From contig NZ_CP071870.1 in NCBI RefSeq assembly GCF_017569205.1, forward strand, positions 1,054,001 to 1,118,000: a stretch of 64,000 nt of DNA. Reading direction: 5' to 3'. The position numbers were made by a program, and so were the translations under genes. Source of the stretch: Propioniciclava sp. MC1595 (GTDB taxonomy: Bacteria > Actinomycetota > Actinomycetes > Propionibacteriales > Propionibacteriaceae). Below, one piece after another: positions 43,033-53,721 of this stretch. Below the pieces are notes generated by a model. That model searched no databases. It was not told the DNA's origin and saw only the letters and a program-made list of their open reading frames with translations. Within the stretch, counting starts at the first letter, position 1. Every line of letters starts with the position of its first letter.

Positions 43033-44031
43033 ATGACTTCCGAGCACCTCCTCGACGTCCGCGACCTACGCGTCGAGTTCCGCACCCGCGACGGGGTGGC
43101 CAAGGCCATCAACGGCGTGTCCTTCCACCTCGACGAGCGCGAGACGCTCGCGATCCTCGGCGAGTCGGGGTCGGGCAAGTCGGTGACCGCGCAGGCGATC
43201 ATGGGCATCCTCGACACCCCGCCCGGCTACGTCACCGGGGGCGAGGTGTTCCTCCGCGGGCAGGACCTCCTCAAGCTCCCCGAGAAGCAGCGCCAGGCCG
43301 TCCGAGGCCCGCAGATCTCGATGATCTTCCAGGACGCCCTGAGCTCGCTCAACCCGGTGTTCCCGGTGGGCTGGCAGATCGCCGAGATGTTCCGCATCCA
43401 CAAGGGCATGAACCGCTCCGACGCGCAGGCCGAGGCCGTGCGGCTGATGGAGCGGGTCAAGATCCCCGCCGCCAAGGAGCGGGTCAAGGCCTACCCGCAC
43501 CAGTTCTCGGGCGGCATGCGCCAGCGCATCATGATCGCGATGGCGATCGCCCTCGACCCGGCCGTGCTGATCGCCGACGAGCCGACCACCGCCCTGGACG
43601 TCACCGTGCAGGCGCAGATCATGCAGCTGCTCAAGGAGCTGCAGGCCGAGTCGGGCATGGGCCTGATCCTGATCACCCACGACCTCGGCGTGGTCGCCGA
43701 CGTCGCCGACCGGATCTCGGTCATGTACGCGGGCCGCATCGTCGAGAGCGCCGGCGTCCACGACCTGTACAGCCGCCCGGCCCATGCGTACACCAAGGGG
43801 CTGCTGGACTCGATCCCGCGCCTGGACCAGCGCGGCCAGACCCTGTATGCGATCGGCGGCCTGCCGCCCAACCTGATGCGCATCCCGCCGGGGTGCCCCT
43901 TCAACCCGCGCTGCGTGTACGCCACCGACGTCTGCCGGAGCGGGGAGCCGCCGGCGCTGGTCGAGGTGCTGCCCAGGCGGCTCGCGGCCTGCCACCACAC
44001 GAAGGAGGTGCTCGCCGATGGCCGAGCCTGA
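43033..44031 (+). CDS. Oligopeptide ABC transporter ATP-binding protein (DppD type), system 2
   Basis: 332 residues. GESGSGKSV Walker [15 protein letters not shown]-loop, [15 protein letters not shown] signature, [13 protein letters not shown] Walker B and ITHDLG H-loop are intact. C-terminal oligo-HPY block [14 protein letters not shown] with four Cys. Pairs with DppF encoded next, with a 14-nt overlap. Confidence 0.93.
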
Positions 44032-45037
44032 CGTCGTGCTGCGGGCCGAGGAGCTCGTCAAGCACTACCCGATCAAGACCGGCGTCATCCGGCGCACGAC
44101 CGGCCACGTGCGGGCCGTCGACGGGGTGTCCCTGGAGTTGCGCCGCGGCGAGACCCTCGGCGTGGTGGGGGAGTCCGGCTGTGGGAAGTCCACCCTCGGC
44201 CGGCTGCTGATGCGCCTGGAGGAGCCGACCGCCGGTCGCGTGTTCCTCGACGGCGTCGACATGCACGCCACGAGCGGTGCCGCGATGCGCAAGATGCGCC
44301 GTGACATCCAGATCGTGTTCCAGGACCCGTACACATCGCTGAACCCCCGCAAGACGGTCGGCGACATCGTGGCCGAGCCCTTCGACATCCACCCCGACGT
44401 CGTGCCCAAGGGCGGCCGTCGCCGCCGGGTGCAGGAGCTGCTCGACCTCGTGGGCCTCAACCCCGAGCACATCAACCGGTACCCGCACCAGTTCTCGGGC
44501 GGTCAGCGGCAGCGCATCGGCATCGCCCGCGGCATCGCGCTCAACCCCAAGGTGCTGATCTGCGACGAGCCCGTCTCGGCGCTCGACGTGTCGGTGCAGG
44601 CCCAGGTCGTCAACCTGCTCGAGAAGCTGCAGGACGAGCTCGGCCTCGCCTACGTGTTCATCGCCCACGACCTGTCGGTGGTGCGCCACATCTCCGACCG
44701 CGTCGCGGTGATGTACCTGGGCAAGATCGTCGAGGTCGGCACCGAGCACGAGATCTACGAGACGCCCACGCACCCGTACACGCGGGCGCTGCTCTCGGCG
44801 GTGCCCGTGCCCGACCCGCGGGCGCGCGAGGTGCGCCAGCAGATCGTGCTGACCGGCGACGTGCCCAGCCCGGCCAACCCGCCCTCGGGCTGCCGGTTCC
44901 ACACCCGCTGCTGGAAGGCGACCGAGCTGTGCTCCCGCGAGGAGCCGGCGCTGGTCGAGCGCCCCGACGGCAACGGCGGCCACGAGTCGGCGTGCCACTA
45001 CGCGGAGGAGAGCGCGGCCGAGCGCCTGACGGTGTGA
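44018..45037 (+). CDS. Oligopeptide ABC transporter ATP-binding protein (DppF type), system 2
   Basis: 339 residues. [43 protein letters not shown] and [14 protein letters not shown] mark the DppF/OppF branch. C-terminal Cys block [14 protein letters not shown]. Last gene of operon 2; the Moco gene mog starts 20 nt later from its own -10 box. Confidence 0.93.
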
Positions 45038-47023: not shown

Positions 47024-48415
47024 TCAGGCCGGGCGGTCGATGGCGTCCAGCTCCCAGCCGTCGGGGCCCGGGACGACGTTGCGCGCCAAGGGGATCTGGT
47101 GGGAGGCGCTCTCGAGGATGTGCATCAGGTAGCCGCCGGTGTTGGGCAGGGCGATGATGTCGCCGGCAGCGACCCCCTCGGGGAACCACATCCGCCGGCG
47201 CAGGATCAGCTCGTCCTCGATGCAGTAGGCGCCGACGAGGAACCCGTCGTAGGCGTCACCGGCCGCGCCCCGGCGCACCAGCACCGGGTCGACGAGGAAG
47301 TCGTCGGAGGTCGAGCGGCACTGCGTCCGGTTCATCTCCAGGCCGACCAGCCCGACCCCGTCGCTGCGCTCCTTGGTGAACGCCACGCGCGCGAGGGTCA
47401 GCCCGCAGCCATCGAGCAGCGAGCGGCCCGGTTCGAGGTGCAGCCGCAAGCCCCGGGAGGCCAGCCCGGACGCCGCCGTGCCCGACCCGTCCGCCAAGGG
47501 CAGCGCGAGCAGCCCGTCCAGCCAGCCGCCCCGGACCGGCTCCTGCCAGTACGGGTAGACGGTGCCGAGCGGGTGATCCTTCCACGTGATCGCCTCGTCG
47601 CGGTTCCCGGACGTCATCGCGGCCCAGAAGCCGTGCCAGACTGCGCGGTCGGCGAGGTAGCTCATCGGGACGCCGCCGCCCAGGTCCACGAACCCGACCG
47701 GGTGCCCGGCCGCGCGGAGGGCGTCCACGAGCGGGAGGCACTCGCCGAGCACGGCCACCCGGTCGGCGGCCGCATACCCGTGCAGGTGGGCGTGGACGCC
47801 CACGACCTGCACCGCCGGCACCCGGGCCCAGTCGACCTGCGCCCACGCAGACGTGAGCACCCCGAAGCGCGTCGGCGGCAGCCCGGTCGCCGGGCTGGGC
47901 GCGACCCGCGGCGCCACCCGGGCGACAGCCTCCGCCGAGCTGGCGACCGCGGCCACCCGCTCCAGCTCGGCCGGGCCGTCGACCGACACCGTCGTGCCGG
48001 AGCGCACCGCGAGCTCGAGCAGCGCGTCGGGCTTGATGGCCGCGCTCAGGATGACCCGCTCGCCGGGCACGCCGGCGTCCAGCACCTGCCGCAGCTCGGA
48101 CTCGCTGGCCACGTCCACCCCGTGCCCCGCGTCGGACGCCGCGCGCACCAGCGCGAGCGCCTTGTTGGCCTTGCGCGCGAAGAAGACGCCGACCTCGACG
48201 CCGTGGCGGGCGCCGGCGTCCACGAGTTCGGCGGCATTGCGGGGGAGCTTTCCGGGTTCGATGACGTTGACCGGCGACCCGTGCTCGGCCAGCAGGGCCT
48301 CGCACGCGTCGGGGTCGGAGAGCAGGGCGAACATCCAGTGCTCGAGCCGGGCGGGTAGCGGCGGTCGGCCGTGGACGCCGGCGCGCAGCCGGTCCCGGGC
48401 GGGGTGGTGGTTCAT
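47024..48415 (-). CDS. Y4yA-family PLP-dependent enzyme (alanine racemase/ODC-like fold III)
   Basis: 463 residues. Lys82 in VFFARKANKAL is the PLP Lys of the diaminopimelate/ornithine decarboxylase fold; HAHLHGY (about 205), FVDLGGGVPM and LEPGRSLLD follow, and GAYCIEDELILRRR takes the place of the decarboxylase C-terminal Cys-Glu pair. I recognise the Y4yA subgroup, named after a Rhizobium NGR234 gene, function unknown. Last gene of a three-gene operon; ATGA overlap with the FAD/NAD(P)-binding gene. Could decarboxylate or epimerise an amino acid made upstream. Confidence 0.75.
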   Translation of the reverse strand: MNHHPARDRLRAGVHGRPPLPARLEHWMFALLSDPDACEALLAEHGSPVNVIEPGKLPRNAAELVDAGARHGVEVGVFFARKANKALALVRAASDAGHGVDVASESELRQVLDAGVPGERVILSAAIKPDALLELAVRSGTTVSVDGPAELERVAAVASSAEAVARVAPRVAPSPATGLPPTRFGVLTSAWAQVDWARVPAVQVVGVHAHLHGYAAADRVAVLGECLPLVDALRAAGHPVGFVDLGGGVPMSYLADRAVWHGFWAAMTSGNRDEAITWKDHPLGTVYPYWQEPVRGGWLDGLLALPLADGSGTAASGLASRGLRLHLEPGRSLLDGCGLTLARVAFTKERSDGVGLVGLEMNRTQCRSTSDDFLVDPVLVRRGAAGDAYDGFLVGAYCIEDELILRRRMWFPEGVAAGDIIALPNTGGYLMHILESASHQIPLARNVVPGPDGWELDAIDRPA

Positions 48416-49896
48416 CGTTCCTCCTCGAAGCGGGCGGCGACCCGGAGGGCCCAGGCGTCCCGGGCGGGGTGCAGGCTGCGGGACAGGGTGTCGTTGCCCA
48501 CCGTCGCGTCCTCGGTGGGGCGTCCGACGACGGCGAGCCCGGGCAGGGGGTGCCCGTCGGGGGACAGGCAGGTGGCGTCGGCGGTGTGCGCGACGCCCCG
48601 GCGTCCGGGGGCCTGTACGAGCAACCCCGCCTCGACGAGGCGGCCGGGCAGCGTCACGGCGCCGGTGACCACGCCGGGGCCGGGCAGCACGGCGTCCACG
48701 ACGACGTCGACGGCGACCGGCCCGTGGTGCCCGGAACCGTCGATCGTGTCGGTGGCCAGCGATGAGGCGTCGACGACCCCCGCCTCGACCAGCGCGAGCA
48801 GCTTGGCGGCGTTGACCGGCGGCGGGCCGAAGGCCACCCCCTCCAGCCGGGACGCCGCCTCGGCGAAGGGCTCGAAGGCGAGCCCGCCCCCGAGCGAGAA
48901 GCGCTCCACCAGCGCGGGGTACAGCTCGCGCCAGGCGGCGCCGACCGCCCAACCGGCATCGGGGCGGGCCCGGTCGGTGGCGACGGCGAGCGACGCGCGG
49001 AGGGCGTCCACGGCGTCGGCGTGGGTGGGGGCACCCTCGAAGACGTCCTCGACCCCCGCCGGGTCCTGACCGAGCCCGGCGAGCAGGTTGCGCGCCGTGG
49101 CGGGCACGACGGCCAAGGCGACAGAGGCGTCACCCGCCGCCCGGATCGCCGCAAGCCCCCGCTCGCGCACCGCCCCCGAGACCGCGGAGGCGATCGCCGA
49201 CCCCGGCTGCGGCTTGACGGCCATGAACCGGCCCCGCCGGGCCACCGGGCGCAGCGACCCGGGTTCGTCCCCGCTCGCCATGTACCCGGGCGCCCACGGC
49301 TCGCCGGTGAAGCGCCCGCCGCGCCCCTCGGTGAGGGCGAGGGCCAGGTCGATGAAGGTCAGGGCGGCCCCGCGGCTGGCCACGACCGCTCCGGCCGGCA
49401 CGGCGTCCAGACCGCTGACGGGGTAGACCGACGGCACGAGCGCTTGCGGTCCGGACCAGCCGGCCGCCAGTCCGTCAGGGGAGTCCGTCGCGTGCCCGGT
49501 CGCGAGCAGGACCTCGTCGTAGGCCGCCCCGTCGACCGCCCACGCAGCTCCCGACGCCTCGACGGTGCCGGCTGCGCGCGCGACATGGCTGAGCCCCGCG
49601 TGCCGCTCGAAGAGGGACGCCCAGCGCTCGGCCAGGTACACCCCCAGCAGCGCGCGCGGGGGGAACGGGTCGAGGGGAGCGGCCTCACCACGGGCAAGGC
49701 GCCACGCATCGAAGCCGTCGACGATCGCCGAGGTCACGTTGAGGCGCAGCCAGACCGGCTGGTCGGTGGCGTAGGCGGCGCCGGTGCCGGGCGGGCGGGA
49801 GTCCCAGACGTCGACCACCGCCCGGGGTGCCCGGGCGAGCAGTTCCTCGACGGCGTAGAGCCCCTTCGGCCCCGCGCCGACCACCGCGACCCTCAC
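48412..49896 (-). CDS. FAD/NAD(P)-binding oxidoreductase-like protein
   Basis: 494 residues from GTG 49896. VRVAVVGAGPKGLYAVEELL is a dinucleotide fold at the very N-terminus. A second LLATGHATDS-type strand lies near residue 135, and a GNDTLSRSLHPARDAWALR end follows. The overall pattern resembles the FAD-NAD(P)-binding family (PF13454 type), whose members include hydroxylase-like proteins of unknown substrate. GTGA overlap upstream and ATGA downstream lock it between two PLP enzymes, so it should act on the same intermediate. Confidence 0.7.
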   Translation of the reverse strand: MRVAVVGAGPKGLYAVEELLARAPRAVVDVWDSRPPGTGAAYATDQPVWLRLNVTSAIVDGFDAWRLARGEAAPLDPFPPRALLGVYLAERWASLFERHAGLSHVARAAGTVEASGAAWAVDGAAYDEVLLATGHATDSPDGLAAGWSGPQALVPSVYPVSGLDAVPAGAVVASRGAALTFIDLALALTEGRGGRFTGEPWAPGYMASGDEPGSLRPVARRGRFMAVKPQPGSAIASAVSGAVRERGLAAIRAAGDASVALAVVPATARNLLAGLGQDPAGVEDVFEGAPTHADAVDALRASLAVATDRARPDAGWAVGAAWRELYPALVERFSLGGGLAFEPFAEAASRLEGVAFGPPPVNAAKLLALVEAGVVDASSLATDTIDGSGHHGPVAVDVVVDAVLPGPGVVTGAVTLPGRLVEAGLLVQAPGRRGVAHTADATCLSPDGHPLPGLAVVGRPTEDATVGNDTLSRSLHPARDAWALRVAARFEEER

Positions 49897-50897
49897 GCGC
49901 CCTCCCCGAAGGCGGCGACGCGGGCGGCCAACGTGTCGGGCGACACGCCGACCTCGGCCTCGACCCACGCGTCGTCGAACACCGTCGACGCGTACGGCTG
50001 GCCGCCGTCGTGCAGGATCAGCACGACGTTGCCCGACAGCTGGGGTGCAAACCGCGCGACCGCAGCCGCGACGGCCCCGGCCGAGGCGCCGGCGAGGACG
50101 CCCTCGCGCAGGGCCAGCGCGCGGGTGCCGACCACGGCCTCGTCGGCGGGGATGCGCGCGACCGCGTGCGGGGTCAGCCCCTCGGCCAGCGCGGGCACGA
50201 TCCCGGCCCCGTAGCCGGCGAGCAGGCGGGTGCCGCGCTCGCCCCCGAACAGGACCGAGCCCGCGGCGTCCACGGCCACGACCCTGGTGCCCAGCCCGGC
50301 ACGCTCCACGTGGGCCAGGCAGCCGGCGATCGTGCCGGTGGTCGAGGTGGCGACGAACACCCAGTCGACGTCCCCGCCGAGCGCGAGGTCGACCTCGCGC
50401 ATGGTGCCGTCGGCGTGCGCCCGGACGGCGGCGCGGTTGGAGTACTGGTCGAGCCACACCGCGTCGGGCCGCTCGTCGACCAGCTCGCGCACCCGGGTGA
50501 GGCGGGCCACGAGCCAGTCGCCGGTGTCGGGGTCGGGTTCGGTGACGGGGACGACCTCGGCGCCGAGCGCGCGCACGATCGCCAGCGTCGCCGGGTTGGT
50601 GCGCGGGTCGACGACGCACACGGCCTTCATGTCGTGCAGGAGGGCCAGCCGGGCGAGCGCGACCGCGAAGTTGCCCGAGCTCGACTCGACCAGCGTCGAC
50701 CCGCGCCCGATCCGACCGGACGCCAGCGCCTCGGCCACGATCGCCTGGGCGGAGCGGTCCTTGGCCGAGCCGCCGGGGTTGAAGGACTCGAGCTTGGCGA
50801 ACAGCCGCGCGGGGCAGTCGGGCAGCAACCGGGTCAGGCCGACCAGCGGTGTCCCCCCGATGGTGTCGAGGAGTGCCTTCGGCCCGATGGTGCCCAC
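49893..50897 (-). CDS. SbnA-like PLP synthase (cysteine-synthase fold)
   Basis: 334 residues from GTG 50897. FNPGGSAKDRSA holds PLP Lys46; SSGNFAVALA and STTGTIAG are the phosphate-binding loops. Resemblance to SbnA of staphyloferrin B synthesis (2,3-diaminopropionate route) exceeds that to CysK: VCVVDPRTNP, WLDQYSN and VAVDAAGSVLFGG match, from memory, the corresponding SbnA stretches. SbnA makes N-(2-amino-2-carboxyethyl)-glutamate from O-phosphoserine and glutamate. First gene of the operon; substrate here unproven. Confidence 0.75.
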   Translation of the reverse strand: MGTIGPKALLDTIGGTPLVGLTRLLPDCPARLFAKLESFNPGGSAKDRSAQAIVAEALASGRIGRGSTLVESSSGNFAVALARLALLHDMKAVCVVDPRTNPATLAIVRALGAEVVPVTEPDPDTGDWLVARLTRVRELVDERPDAVWLDQYSNRAAVRAHADGTMREVDLALGGDVDWVFVATSTTGTIAGCLAHVERAGLGTRVVAVDAAGSVLFGGERGTRLLAGYGAGIVPALAEGLTPHAVARIPADEAVVGTRALALREGVLAGASAGAVAAAVARFAPQLSGNVVLILHDGGQPYASTVFDDAWVEAEVGVSPDTLAARVAAFGEGA

Positions 50898-50904
50898 GAA
50901 CGCG

Positions 50905-50910
50905 AGCCTA
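50905..50910 (-). promoter_or_regulatory. -10-like TAGGCT before SbnA-like gene
   Basis: Minus-strand TAGGCT, 7 nt, GTG 50897; no SD. It gives the three-gene operon its own leaderless promoter, only about 30 nt downstream of moaD on the same strand. Confidence 0.5.
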
Positions 50911-50940: not shown

Positions 50941-51180
50941 TCAGCCCCCGGCGAAGGGCGGCAGGACGTCGACGAGCATCGTGGGTGACAACGGCGTCTC
51001 GCGGTCGTCGGTGCGGTGGCCCTCGACGAGGATCGAGCACCGGTCGAGCACGCGCGAGAAGCCCTCGCCGTGTTCCTCCACGAGGGCGTCGCGCAGTTCG
51101 CCCAGGGTCGCGGCGTCGACCACGACCGTGTTGGTGCCCGCGGCCTCGGCGGCGGCGGCGAAGAAGCGGACGGTGGGCAT
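50941..51180 (-). CDS. moaD: Molybdopterin synthase sulfur carrier subunit
   Basis: 79 residues, ubiquitin-like: MPTVRFFAAAAEAAG start, LGELRDALVEEHG helix, and the C-terminal PPFAGG with the Gly-Gly that is adenylylated by MoeB and thiocarboxylated. Partner of MoaE. TGATG junction with mobA. Last gene of the Moco part of the minus-strand unit. Confidence 0.92.
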   Translation of the reverse strand: MPTVRFFAAAAEAAGTNTVVVDAATLGELRDALVEEHGEGFSRVLDRCSILVEGHRTDDRETPLSPTMLVDVLPPFAGG

Positions 51181-52025
51181 CAGTCCTCCTCGGGGAGCGG
51201 GGCGGTGGCGATGGCGTCCTGCAGCGCGGTCGCGACCGCGACGGGGTCGGCCTCGGGGTCGGCGCCCAGCGCCAGGCCGAGGATGAAGGTGGAGACCGGC
51301 GCCATCGGCCGGGCCCCCTCGTGGGCCACCCGGCGGGACAGGCGCAGCAGTGCGTGCTCGTCGACGCGGGCGGCGTCGAGGCCGAGGCGGGCGCAGGCGT
51401 CCTCGACGAACGCGCGCCAGCCCTCCTTGTTGTCCTCGGCGGCGTTGGCGGGGGCCGCGGGGTTGGAGGCGACCCAGCGCGCGAGCTGCTCGGGGGTGTC
51501 GAGGTCCTCGACCGAGGCGTCGCCCGGGTCGACCGGCAGCAGCGACAGCGAGGCCATCACCCCGCGCACGGAGCGGTTCGCGGGATCGCCCCAAGCGGCG
51601 AACGCGCGCCGCAGTGCCGGCGTCCGGTAGAGGGCCGCGAGGTGCTGCAGCTCGCCGCCGGCGTCGCGCAGGCACAGGCCGTCCGCGTCGTCGGGGGCGG
51701 TGTCGAGGGCCGAGCGCAGGACGCCGACCGCGGCGGGCGCGTCCGGCAGGTCACAGGCCAGCACGAGCGTCCACGGCGCGGGGGAGGCGACGGCGTCCAG
51801 CCCGGCCAGCAGTCCGGCGGCCGGGCCGGTGCCGGGCGGGTCCTCGCGGGTCACGACGACGCCGAGCGGGACGGCCACGTCGCCCACCACCACGGTGGTC
51901 GCGGCGCCCGCCGTCGCGCGGAGCACGATGTCGAGCAGGCGCTCGCCGGACACGTCCAGGTCGGCCTTCGAGACGTAGCCCATCCGCGAGCCCTGCCCGC
52001 CGGCCACGATGATCGCGTCGTACAT
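51180..52025 (-). CDS. mobA: MobA-like nucleotidyltransferase fused to a DUF6457 domain
   Basis: 281 residues. Residues 1-190: NTP-transferase with AIIVAGGQGSRMG and LVLACDLPDAP, the MobA pattern for molybdenum cofactor guanylyl- or cytidylyltransferase. Residues 198-281: a helical module, W-x-x-F-V-x-x-A-x-x-x-G-L-D and ARPMAPVSTFILGLALG, which is the same domain as the free-standing 84-residue protein at 54863-55117. It probably makes the dinucleotide form (MGD) needed by NarG. TGATG junctions on both sides. Confidence 0.87.
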   Translation of the reverse strand: MYDAIIVAGGQGSRMGYVSKADLDVSGERLLDIVLRATAGAATTVVVGDVAVPLGVVVTREDPPGTGPAAGLLAGLDAVASPAPWTLVLACDLPDAPAAVGVLRSALDTAPDDADGLCLRDAGGELQHLAALYRTPALRRAFAAWGDPANRSVRGVMASLSLLPVDPGDASVEDLDTPEQLARWVASNPAAPANAAEDNKEGWRAFVEDACARLGLDAARVDEHALLRLSRRVAHEGARPMAPVSTFILGLALGADPEADPVAVATALQDAIATAPLPEED

Positions 52026-52504
52026 CAGTTCTCCCGCTTCCAGGTGCCGGAACGGCCGCCCTCCTTGGCGAGCAGGCGCACGTGCTCGATGTGGGCGAAG
52101 CGGTCCAGGCCCTTGACCATGTCGATGATCGCCAGCGCGGCCACGCTGACAGCCGTGAGCGCCTCCATCTCGACCCCGGTGCGGTCAGCGGTGCGCACGG
52201 TGGCGCGGACGTCCACGCCGTCGTCGCGCAGGGTCAGGTCGACCTCGCAGCCGTGGACGCCGATGACGTGCGCCAGCGGCAGCAGGTCGGGGGTCTTCTT
52301 CGCGGCCTGGATGCCCGCGATGCGGGCCACCGCGAGCACGTCGCCCTTGGGCACGTCGCCCGAACGCAACAGGTCGACCACGTCGGCGGACACGACGACG
52401 GACGCCGCGGCGGTGGCCGCGCGCACCGTCGGCTGCTTGGCGGTCACGTCGACCATTCGGGCGCTGCCGGACGCGTCGAGGTGGGTGAACGGCATCTCGG
52501 TCAC
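52025..52504 (-). CDS. moaC: Cyclic pyranopterin monophosphate synthase
   Basis: 159 residues from GTG 52504. FTHLDASGSARMVDVTAK, LLPLAHVIGVHGCEVDL and TGVEMEALTAVSVAALAIIDMVKG with the catalytic KGLD and KEGGRSGTW end define MoaC. Second step of Moco synthesis. GTGA overlap with moeA fixes the start; ATG 52495 is a weaker alternative. Confidence 0.95.
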   Translation of the reverse strand: MTEMPFTHLDASGSARMVDVTAKQPTVRAATAAASVVVSADVVDLLRSGDVPKGDVLAVARIAGIQAAKKTPDLLPLAHVIGVHGCEVDLTLRDDGVDVRATVRTADRTGVEMEALTAVSVAALAIIDMVKGLDRFAHIEHVRLLAKEGGRSGTWKREN

Positions 52505-53721
52505 GGGAGCCTCCTGACGGCGACGAGGTCGCCGGGGGCGACCGTGGTGACGTCCTCGCCGACGGCGGCGATCCCGTCCGCGAGCACGAGCGAGGTGACC
52601 ATGTGCGACGCCGACCCGCGGCGGTGCGCGGGCCGGGCCAGCTGGCGGCCGGTTGTGTCGACGTCGAGGACGACGGGGATGAGCTGGCGGCGTCCGGGCG
52701 GTGAGTCCCAGCCCACGGTGGCCACGGCGACCGACCAGCCGGGGGTGGGGCGGTCGTGCAGCCGGTCGAGGGCGGGGGCGACGAACGTCTCGTAGCTGAT
52801 CGCGGCCGACAGCGGGTTTCCGGGCAGCGCGACCACGGGGACGCCCCCCGCGCCCCAGCGCGCCCAGCCCTGCGGCTTGCCCGGCTGCATCCGGACGTGG
52901 CGGAACCGCGCCCCGCCGGCCTCGAGCACGATGCGGGTGACGTCGGCGTCCCCGACGCTGACGCCGCCGGAGACGACGATGAGGTCGCACGCGGGGGCGA
53001 GGGCATCCAGCGCCGCGGTGAGGTCCTCAGGGGTGTCGCGCACCGCGTCCGGGGTGCGGGGGGTGGCGCCGTCGCGCGTGAGCAGGGCGGCGAGCAGCGT
53101 TCCGTTGGACTCGAAGATCTGCCCGCGTCCCAGCGCCTGGCCGGGCGGGACGAGCTCGTCGCCGGTCGCGATCACGCCCACCACGGGGCGGCGCACGCAG
53201 GCGAGGGTGGGAACCCCGGCGGCGGCCGCGGCGGCCAGCGCGTGCGCGTCGAGCCGGACGCCGGCGTCCAGTGCCAGGTCGCCGGCGCGGAGGTCCTCGC
53301 CCGCGTGCCTGACGTGGCGGCCGCGCTCGACGACGGCGTCGATCCGGACGCCGCCCTCGACGGGCGTGGTCTGCTCGACGGGCACGACGGCGTCCGCGCA
53401 CGAGGGGAGGGGGGCGCCGGTCATGATCTTCACGCAGGCGCAGCCGCCGAAGACCGGGTCCTCCGACGAGCCGGCCAGCACCTCGCCGGCCACGTGCAGC
53501 GTCACGCCCGGCACGAGGTCGGCGGCCCGCACGGCGTAGCCATCCATGGCCGAGTTGGCGAAGGTGGGCACGTCGGCGCGGGCCAGCACCGGCTCGGCGA
53601 GCGTGCGCCCGGCGGCCTCGGCCAGCGGCACCCGCTCGGTGTCGGCGAGCGGGCGGACGAGGGCCAGCACCTCGGCGAGGTACTCCTCGACCGAGAGCAG
53701 GACGCGCTGCGTCGAAGCCAT
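52501..53721 (-). CDS. moeA: Molybdopterin molybdenumtransferase
   Basis: 406 residues. RADVPTFANSAMDGYAVR (about 50-67), VFGGCACVKIMTGAPLPSCAD, GDELVPPGQALGRGQIFESN and VVSGGVSVGDADVTR (about 235-250), then ALPGNPLSAAISYETFV. These are the MoeA/gephyrin landmarks in order. Inserts molybdate into adenylylated molybdopterin. Junctions TGATG (upstream moeB) and GTGA (moaC). Confidence 0.95.
   Translation of the reverse strand: MASTQRVLLSVEEYLAEVLALVRPLADTERVPLAEAAGRTLAEPVLARADVPTFANSAMDGYAVRAADLVPGVTLHVAGEVLAGSSEDPVFGGCACVKIMTGAPLPSCADAVVPVEQTTPVEGGVRIDAVVERGRHVRHAGEDLRAGDLALDAGVRLDAHALAAAAAAGVPTLACVRRPVVGVIATGDELVPPGQALGRGQIFESNGTLLAALLTRDGATPRTPDAVRDTPEDLTAALDALAPACDLIVVSGGVSVGDADVTRIVLEAGGARFRHVRMQPGKPQGWARWGAGGVPVVALPGNPLSAAISYETFVAPALDRLHDRPTPGWSVAVATVGWDSPPGRRQLIPVVLDVDTTGRQLARPAHRRGSASHMVTSLVLADGIAAVGEDVTTVAPGDLVAVRRLP

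Follow-up and report, generated by a model that had tools for sequence, protein, structure and literature searches.

The gene trio and where it recurs

The 64,000-nucleotide stretch of Propioniciclava sp. MC1595 DNA analysed here (the window) carries three overlapping open reading frames, which we call genes A, B and C. An earlier reading made from the letters alone (the sequence-only reading) had described them as an operon for an SbnA-like enzyme, a flavin adenine dinucleotide (FAD)/NAD(P)-binding protein and an enzyme of the Y4yA group dependent on pyridoxal 5'-phosphate (PLP). All three frames are open on the minus strand, and their GTGA and ATGA junctions lie where that reading had placed them (Table 1). 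Three observations go beyond it, namely the kinship of B to the N-hydroxylase FzmM, the occurrence of fusions between B and C, and the presence of other third enzymes in further pairs of SbnA-like and Y4yA genes. Loci and genomes are cited below by our own L and G numbers where they need to be told apart.

Table 1. Features of the trio locus, in window coordinates
Feature	Position	Strand	Length or basis
Gene A, SbnA-like fold-II PLP synthase	49893..50897	minus	334 aa counted from GTG 50897
Gene B, FAD/NADPH-binding N-monooxygenase-type protein	48412..49896	minus	494 aa; PF13454
Gene C, Y4yA-type fold-III PLP decarboxylase-like protein	47024..48415	minus	463 aa; PF02784
GTGA overlap, A stop / B start	49893..49896	minus	sequence
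ATGA overlap, B stop / C start	48412..48415	minus	sequence
TAGGCT hexamer, candidate -10 box for leaderless transcription	50905..50910	minus	sequence and comparison of upstream regions

Comparison of genome sequences gives good support to the view that the trio is a conserved module. The sequence-only reading had named a lack of conserved co-occurrence as grounds against it; instead, the order A-B-C recurs in 20 loci. These come from Propionibacteriaceae, from a further class of Actinomycetota and from three plasmids, one of Tsukamurella and two of Sulfitobacter. The 20 include L078, whose C occupies two frames; at two further loci, L028 and L072, the trio is truncated by the end of the contig. 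When 197 genomes of the family were searched with C, there were 17 matches at E <= 1e-30, 15 of them belonging to the trio clade, and in all of these B either adjoins C or is fused to it; 14 have the full trio, and in the fifteenth (L072) the contig ends before A. The other two matches (L079, L080) are 34% relatives accompanied by an SbnA-like gene and an ornithine cyclodeaminase-type (OCD) gene. Across 396 genomes of the phylum, the 12 matches at E <= 1e-20 comprised the window, three genomes of the other class with the trio, and eight others in which B was not found within the stretches examined; of 66 genomes from the latter class, a B profile matched 3, the same three carriers. The Tsukamurella paurometabola plasmid pTpau01 (L122) carries the trio with B as an open frame. 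Five Sulfitobacter plasmid records had matches, and in the two that were opened (L123, L129) the genes overlap by 4 bp and are annotated as SbnA, FAD/NAD(P)-binding protein and Y4yA. Within the genus of the window the distribution is patchy, the trio or a contig-cut part of it being present in 5 of 13 genomes (G000, G004, G006, G009 and G010, the window included).

At two loci B and C are fused into one continuous frame with no methionine at the junction (L025, 941 aa; L067, 1130 aa), the L067 fusion being the less sure because that genome is 80% complete and contains ambiguous bases. Mantel tests on the pairwise distances of A, B and C at 16 loci gave r values of 0.84, 0.77 and 0.88, with 0 of 2000 permutations as high in each case, as expected under joint inheritance; these values still include shared species history, and L129 was dropped as a near-copy of L123. 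Our literature search, outside which most subscription journals lay, found no publication on the trio.

The three encoded enzymes

The likeness of gene A to SbnA claimed by the sequence-only reading is borne out by NCBIfam, the SbnA model TIGR03945 scoring 335.6 bits against 139-184 bits for the cystathionine beta-synthase (CBS), CysK and CysM models. All 17 members of one A alignment (A2) matched the SbnA model, and the 17-member profile ranked SbnA (E 7e-102, 344 bits) above CmnB (249 bits), with CBS and cysteine synthases below both (at most 234 bits). SbnA (5d84) was also the best match of gene A in the PDB, where O-ureidoserine synthase (3x43) was among its relatives. Residues K50, R136, Q155, Y156 and S189 of the window protein (numbered from base 50909) correspond to SbnA Lys47, Arg132, Gln151, Tyr152 and Ser185, whose roles, including O-phosphoserine selection, are set out in the available text of PMC12414870. 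Their equivalents are identical in 20/20 trio A proteins. The O-phosphoserine-selecting residues Arg132, Tyr152 and Ser185 occur together in none of 13 A-partners of other Y4yA clusters and none of three paralogs from the window's own genome; by alignment, CmnB apparently has them too.

In the tree of A, the 20 trio proteins form one clade (support 100/97) that is sister to SbnA (96/79) and apart from the paralogs of the window's genome, two of which are CysK and one nearest the L-cysteine desulfhydrase Cds1; a place among CysK/CysM enzymes, which the sequence-only reading had said would count against it, was not what we found. SbnA, CmnB and L095 have long branches, which makes the exact placement of these three unsure. 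The outgroup rows (L093, L094) are CysK by NCBIfam and the tree has no CysM row; the 20 proteins include the cut locus L028 and leave out L075, a near-copy of L074. The family scores, conserved residues and tree together rule out an ordinary CysK, CysM or CBS enzyme, and assignment of gene A as an SbnA-type enzyme is supported by its sequence.

In gene B, Pfam recognizes the FAD-NAD(P)-binding domain PF13454 alone. A profile of 16 B proteins matches FzmM, the aspartate N-hydroxylase of Streptomyces sp. V2 (PDB 8cp2), over its full length (E 1.2e-43), and the same structure was the top Foldseek match of an AlphaFold2 model of B (pLDDT, the predicted local distance difference test score, 90.6; E 1.6e-25; template modelling score 0.75 by query length), with Baeyer-Villiger monooxygenase, flavin-containing monooxygenase and ornithine N-hydroxylase structures in lower rows. 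According to the available text of PMC10404684, FzmM has Asn62 above the flavin, Arg13, Arg577 and an aspartate-binding cluster, Arg409-x2-Arg412-Asn413-x2-Arg416. Among 19 trio B proteins (a set without L067 and without two cut loci), the flavin-side asparagine is kept in all (N53), the Arg13 position is Lys or Arg in 18, and Arg577 corresponds to R473 in 17, this last being placed by ungapped extension past the printed alignment. The R..RN..R cluster is found in none of the 19, as against 5/15 non-trio relatives of B that the phylum search had yielded, with Tyr at the Arg412 position in 19/19, while Tyr326, Glu352 and His476 are invariant in all 19. B thus resembles FzmM, a flavoenzyme of CreE type, in full-length homology, fold, flavin-side Asn and counterparts of Arg13 and Arg577; it differs in the replaced aspartate cluster, the three invariant residues and the company of A and C. 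The replaced Arg/Asn cluster rules out an aspartate N-hydroxylase proper, and B looks like a class-B monooxygenase, apparently functional, that would act on a substrate other than aspartate. No CreD-type nitrosuccinate lyase was present among 35 scanned flanking proteins, though no genome-wide search was made for one. As to B outside the trio, relatives with neither A nor C in the DNA examined were seen at L029, L030 and L124; Pseudosulfitobacter accounts for 46 of the 68 plasmid records with a B match, and in the single one inspected (L124) B is flanked by neither A nor C. No B homologs were found in phage records.

Gene C matches PF02784, and its AlphaFold2 model (pLDDT 87.3) has as nearest folds D-Orn/D-Lys decarboxylase (Foldseek E 9e-25) and diaminopimelate decarboxylase (E 3e-24). 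Lys82, His210, Glu328, Arg331, Cys398 and Tyr429 are invariant in 19/19 trio C proteins, 12 other Y4yA proteins and LysA, and we take the PLP lysine, the histidine, the EPGR motif, the cysteine and the tyrosine to have the active-site roles of fold-III decarboxylases. Loci L067, where C lies within the fusion, and L078, where it is split between two frames, did not contribute to the 19, but the contig-cut L072 did; the L081 protein, in two pieces, was omitted from the C tree, in which trio C forms one clade (99/99). These data support C as a fold-III PLP enzyme of decarboxylase type in the Y4yA group, as the sequence-only reading had it. The label Y4yA itself comes from the annotation of the Sulfitobacter relatives by PGAP, the NCBI prokaryotic genome annotation pipeline; there was no match to an NCBIfam model so named.

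A candidate oxygen-dependent variant of the SbnA/SbnB route

The trio shares with the SbnA/SbnB pathway of staphyloferrin B an SbnA-type enzyme that has kept Arg132, Tyr152 and Ser185, the residues for O-phosphoserine. It differs in that, as the sequence-only reading had supposed, SbnB is missing and an FAD protein of N-monooxygenase type stands in its slot: the SbnB family (OCD, PF02423) has no match in the window's whole 3.43-Mb genome, and IucA/IucC genes are missing from the 19 trio genomes searched. A fold-III PLP enzyme of decarboxylase type is again common to both, being SbnH in staphyloferrin B synthesis; SbnH was not, however, among the 50 Foldseek matches listed for C.

What fills the slot of B elsewhere bears on its role. 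Among 13 other SbnA-like/Y4yA clusters that were opened, the third enzyme is an OCD protein in eight (L079, L080, L082, L083, L085, L126, L128 and L130, including Mycobacterium avium and Agrobacterium tumefaciens and Agrobacterium vitis plasmids), an octopine/nopaline dehydrogenase accompanied by IucA/IucC in two (L125 and L127, the NGR234 and Serratia clusters) and a class V aminotransferase in three. The OCD and octopine dehydrogenase families both oxidize opine-type secondary amines. As the third slot is filled by varied redox or amino-transfer enzymes, the trio may be regarded as its flavin version, and the absence of OCD from 14/19 trio genomes (the window's included), together with OCD or octopine dehydrogenase as third enzyme in the other clusters, suggests that B takes the place of SbnB. 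A recurring set of Y4yA, a divergent cysteine-synthase-like gene and the class V aminotransferase was seen at L081, L084 and L086.

Two described clusters invite comparison. The y4yA-y4xP cluster of Sinorhizobium fredii NGR234 also has Y4yA adjoining an SbnA/cysteine-synthase-like gene, but its third enzyme is the octopine/nopaline dehydrogenase, IucA/IucC and major facilitator superfamily (MFS) genes are present, its Y4yA is 30.3% identical to C, and its A-partner, unlike trio A, lacks Tyr152 and Ser185; in a review, as far as its available text goes, the role of these genes is called enigmatic (PMC3973906). The L-alanosine cluster likewise combines diaminopropionate with flavin-dependent N-hydroxylation, yet, according to the accessible part of PMC7347517, its substrate is bound to a carrier protein, its hydroxylase AlnG resembles acyl-CoA dehydrogenases, and nitrite is released by AlnM/AlnN.

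Our favoured explanation, which we hold tentatively and with somewhat less than even confidence, is that the three enzymes of the trio make up a pathway of their own, in which the SbnA/SbnB route has become oxygen-dependent and whose product would be a small, probably N-oxygenated, 1,2-diamine; the product assignment is weakly supported by the sequence data. In the first step, judging from the conserved residues, A would remove phosphate from O-phosphoserine to give aminoacrylate and add to it an amino-acid nucleophile, most likely glutamate, yielding N-(2-amino-2-carboxyethyl)glutamate (ACEGA). Alternatively, B might act first, N-hydroxylating an amino acid so that A uses the resulting hydroxylamine as the nucleophile on aminoacrylate, much as the O-ureidoserine synthase DcsD uses hydroxyurea. 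The kinship of B to an amino-acid N-hydroxylase and the presence of 3x43 among the PDB relatives of A fit this order of events, but A groups with SbnA and not with cysteine-synthase types, gene A stands first in the operon, and B has not kept the cluster that binds aspartate; we consider this alternative distinctly improbable.

In the second step of the favoured variant route, B would use NADPH, FAD and O2 to oxygenate the secondary amine of the conjugate, as its fold and cofactor residues suggest, and the reaction could proceed by way of a nitrone or imine, releasing 2-oxoglutarate along with either diaminopropionate or the N-hydroxy derivative of it. SbnB carries out the equivalent release of 2-oxoglutarate and diaminopropionate with NAD+ in staphyloferrin B synthesis. 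B could instead be a plain replacement for SbnB, cleaving ACEGA oxidatively and leaving no oxygen in the product, in which case C would decarboxylate diaminopropionate to give ethylenediamine or a chelator containing it. For this speaks that the slot of B is held by OCD or octopine dehydrogenase in 10/13 other clusters, that the window genome has no SbnB, and that an actinomycete ethylenediamine chelator under Zur control, [S,S]-ethylenediaminedisuccinate ([S,S]-EDDS), is described in the available text of PMC6103462; the nearest solved relative of B is nevertheless an N-hydroxylase whose flavin-side Asn it retains, and neither an exporter nor an importer accompanies the trio consistently, though possible exporters adjoin the trio at L025, L069 and L076. 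This is the strongest of the alternatives, if still somewhat unlikely.

The third step of the variant route would be decarboxylation by C of the amino-acid centre, giving the small, probably N-oxygenated 1,2-diamine. The last two enzymes might also work in reverse order, so that C would convert ACEGA by decarboxylation into N-(2-aminoethyl)glutamate, whose secondary amine B would then N-hydroxylate to a chelating hydroxylamine end product. Such an order would make loss of 2-oxoglutarate unnecessary and so explain the absence of SbnB, the B-C fusion is compatible with hand-over in either direction, and transporters of MacB/FtsX-type ATP-binding cassette (ABC) or MFS families lie just upstream at L025, L069 and L076. 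The gene order A-B-C, however, suggests that B is second, and no transporter is common to the loci; we regard this reversal as unlikely.

A more specific form of the oxygen-dependent pathway, which we put forward as rather doubtful, is that an N-hydroxylating flavoenzyme displaced SbnB and oxygenates the secondary amine of the SbnA-type conjugate to an unstable intermediate, from which the coupled and at times fused decarboxylase makes an N-oxygenated 1,2-diamine. Siderophores and antibiotics draw on diaminopropionate precursors, for which genome mining usually takes the SbnA/SbnB pair as its marker; we know of no characterized SbnA pathway that yields N-oxygenated 1,2-diamines. Were the pathway as proposed, it would be a new and very short route to N-oxygenated small diamines, keeping SbnA chemistry, adding a coupled decarboxylase and needing neither a nonribosomal peptide synthetase (NRPS) nor an IucA/IucC synthetase or carrier protein, and it would be spread over two phyla, partly on plasmids. 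Since it has no more than three genes, two of which are fused in nature at some loci, and Sulfitobacter is among its named carriers, the question lends itself to direct tests in vitro.

Several findings weigh against the proposed pathway. The curated cut-off of TIGR03945 (349.95 bits) is narrowly missed by the window protein and passed by one of the three A proteins whose scores were inspected, that of Sulfitobacter CB2047 (358.1 bits) and not that of Tsukamurella (343.6 bits), and the branch joining trio A to SbnA is incompletely supported (79 in the Shimodaira-Hasegawa-like approximate likelihood ratio test). The third enzyme is an aminotransferase instead of a redox enzyme in 3/13 other clusters, and the A-partners there have Gly at the Ser185 position in 13/13 and His or Ser at the Tyr152 position in 8/13, so that those pathways may start differently and the argument from the slot is weaker. 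An OCD gene is present in 5/19 trio genomes (4/15 of those at least 90% complete), on other contigs or far away and in none at the trio. The substrate of B could be another amine, acted on before A or after C. Finally, trio C has Glu402 where 12/12 other Y4yA proteins and LysA have Asp, and Arg363 where the same 12 have Ala, Leu or Met and LysA also differs, which suggests another substrate than in the other Y4yA enzymes and makes the substrate of C unsure.

The sequence-only reading was right that no NRPS or NRPS-independent siderophore (NIS) synthetase is at hand, PF00668 and PF04183 both being absent from the window genome. More widely, IucA/IucC (PF04183) was found in 0/19 trio genomes in a search that gave matches in 2/14 known genomes, including Escherichia coli, and the NRPS condensation domain (PF00668) in 2/19. 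On these counts we reject a NIS siderophore such as staphyloferrin B and also a role in supplying an NRPS, the two genomes with PF00668 not including that of the window. That reading had also linked the trio to nitrate respiration through its position after molybdenum-cofactor (Moco) genes. The Moco neighbours are real, the trio sitting within a split set of these genes (43033-45037 and 50941-53721) beside a peptide-type ABC transporter, but the link itself found no support, as none of moaA, moaC, moaE and moeA was seen at 21 other trio loci (19 complete and 2 cut), of each of which 5-20 kb were examined. It is therefore very improbable that the trio is a degraded staphyloferrin B or other NIS cluster, or that it serves nitrate respiration: SbnA-like and fold-III decarboxylase-type genes and the flanking Moco genes on both sides would suit these ideas, whereas the trio is undamaged and has been kept in more than one phylum, and synthetase and Moco genes are absent as just described.

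Transcription signals and neighbouring genes

Gene A may start at GTG 50897 or, alternatively, at TTG 50924; we prefer the former because an 83% identical relative (L024) has the same start. A single leaderless -10 box had been proposed in the sequence-only reading. The TAGGCT hexamer is present, but scans found neither a sigma-70 promoter nor a terminator. A TANNNT hexamer begins at -12 or -13 in 5/16 upstream regions (the window, L024, L027, L068 and L071), a count that has no chance control and comes from a comparison leaving out L074-L078; since the window shares its genus with L024, and L027 with L068, the five cases are perhaps three independent ones. A leaderless start is plausible on these signals. 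At L026, L028 and L070 a very short open reading frame follows a TANNNT box and terminates, as ATGA or GTGA, exactly on the A start codon; it may encode a leader peptide or may be due to chance. Gene starts at loci other than the window were taken from a home-made caller and inspection by eye. In the window gene A begins 43 nt after the moaD stop, and moeA-moaC-mobA-moaD lie on the same strand as the trio; with so short a gap, read-through from these genes into the trio is possible.

Neighbours of the trio vary by genome and include a peptide ABC transporter, ribosomal protein L14, arginyl-tRNA synthetase, an integrase and a rhodanese, among others. No constant transporter or regulator was found among the 35 flanking proteins, which come from 16/22 loci (L071 and L072 not among them), or among those annotated at three plasmids. 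Possible exporters stand directly upstream of A on the same strand at L025 (MacB-type genes), L069 (an ABC-FtsX protein) and L076 (an MFS protein), and at L024 an ABC transporter related to that of the window adjoins the trio. A CPBP/Rce1-like protein and an NAD(P)H-binding protein, 32% and 37% identical between the two loci, are encoded just 3' of the trio at L026 (12312-14484) and L122 (9853-11560), a pair that a search of the 20 remaining loci did not find again. A pyridoxamine-5'-phosphate-oxidase-like protein (PF16242), which may or may not have a tie beyond chance to the two PLP enzymes of the trio, adjoins it at L027 (7026-7493) and L074 (4972-5457).

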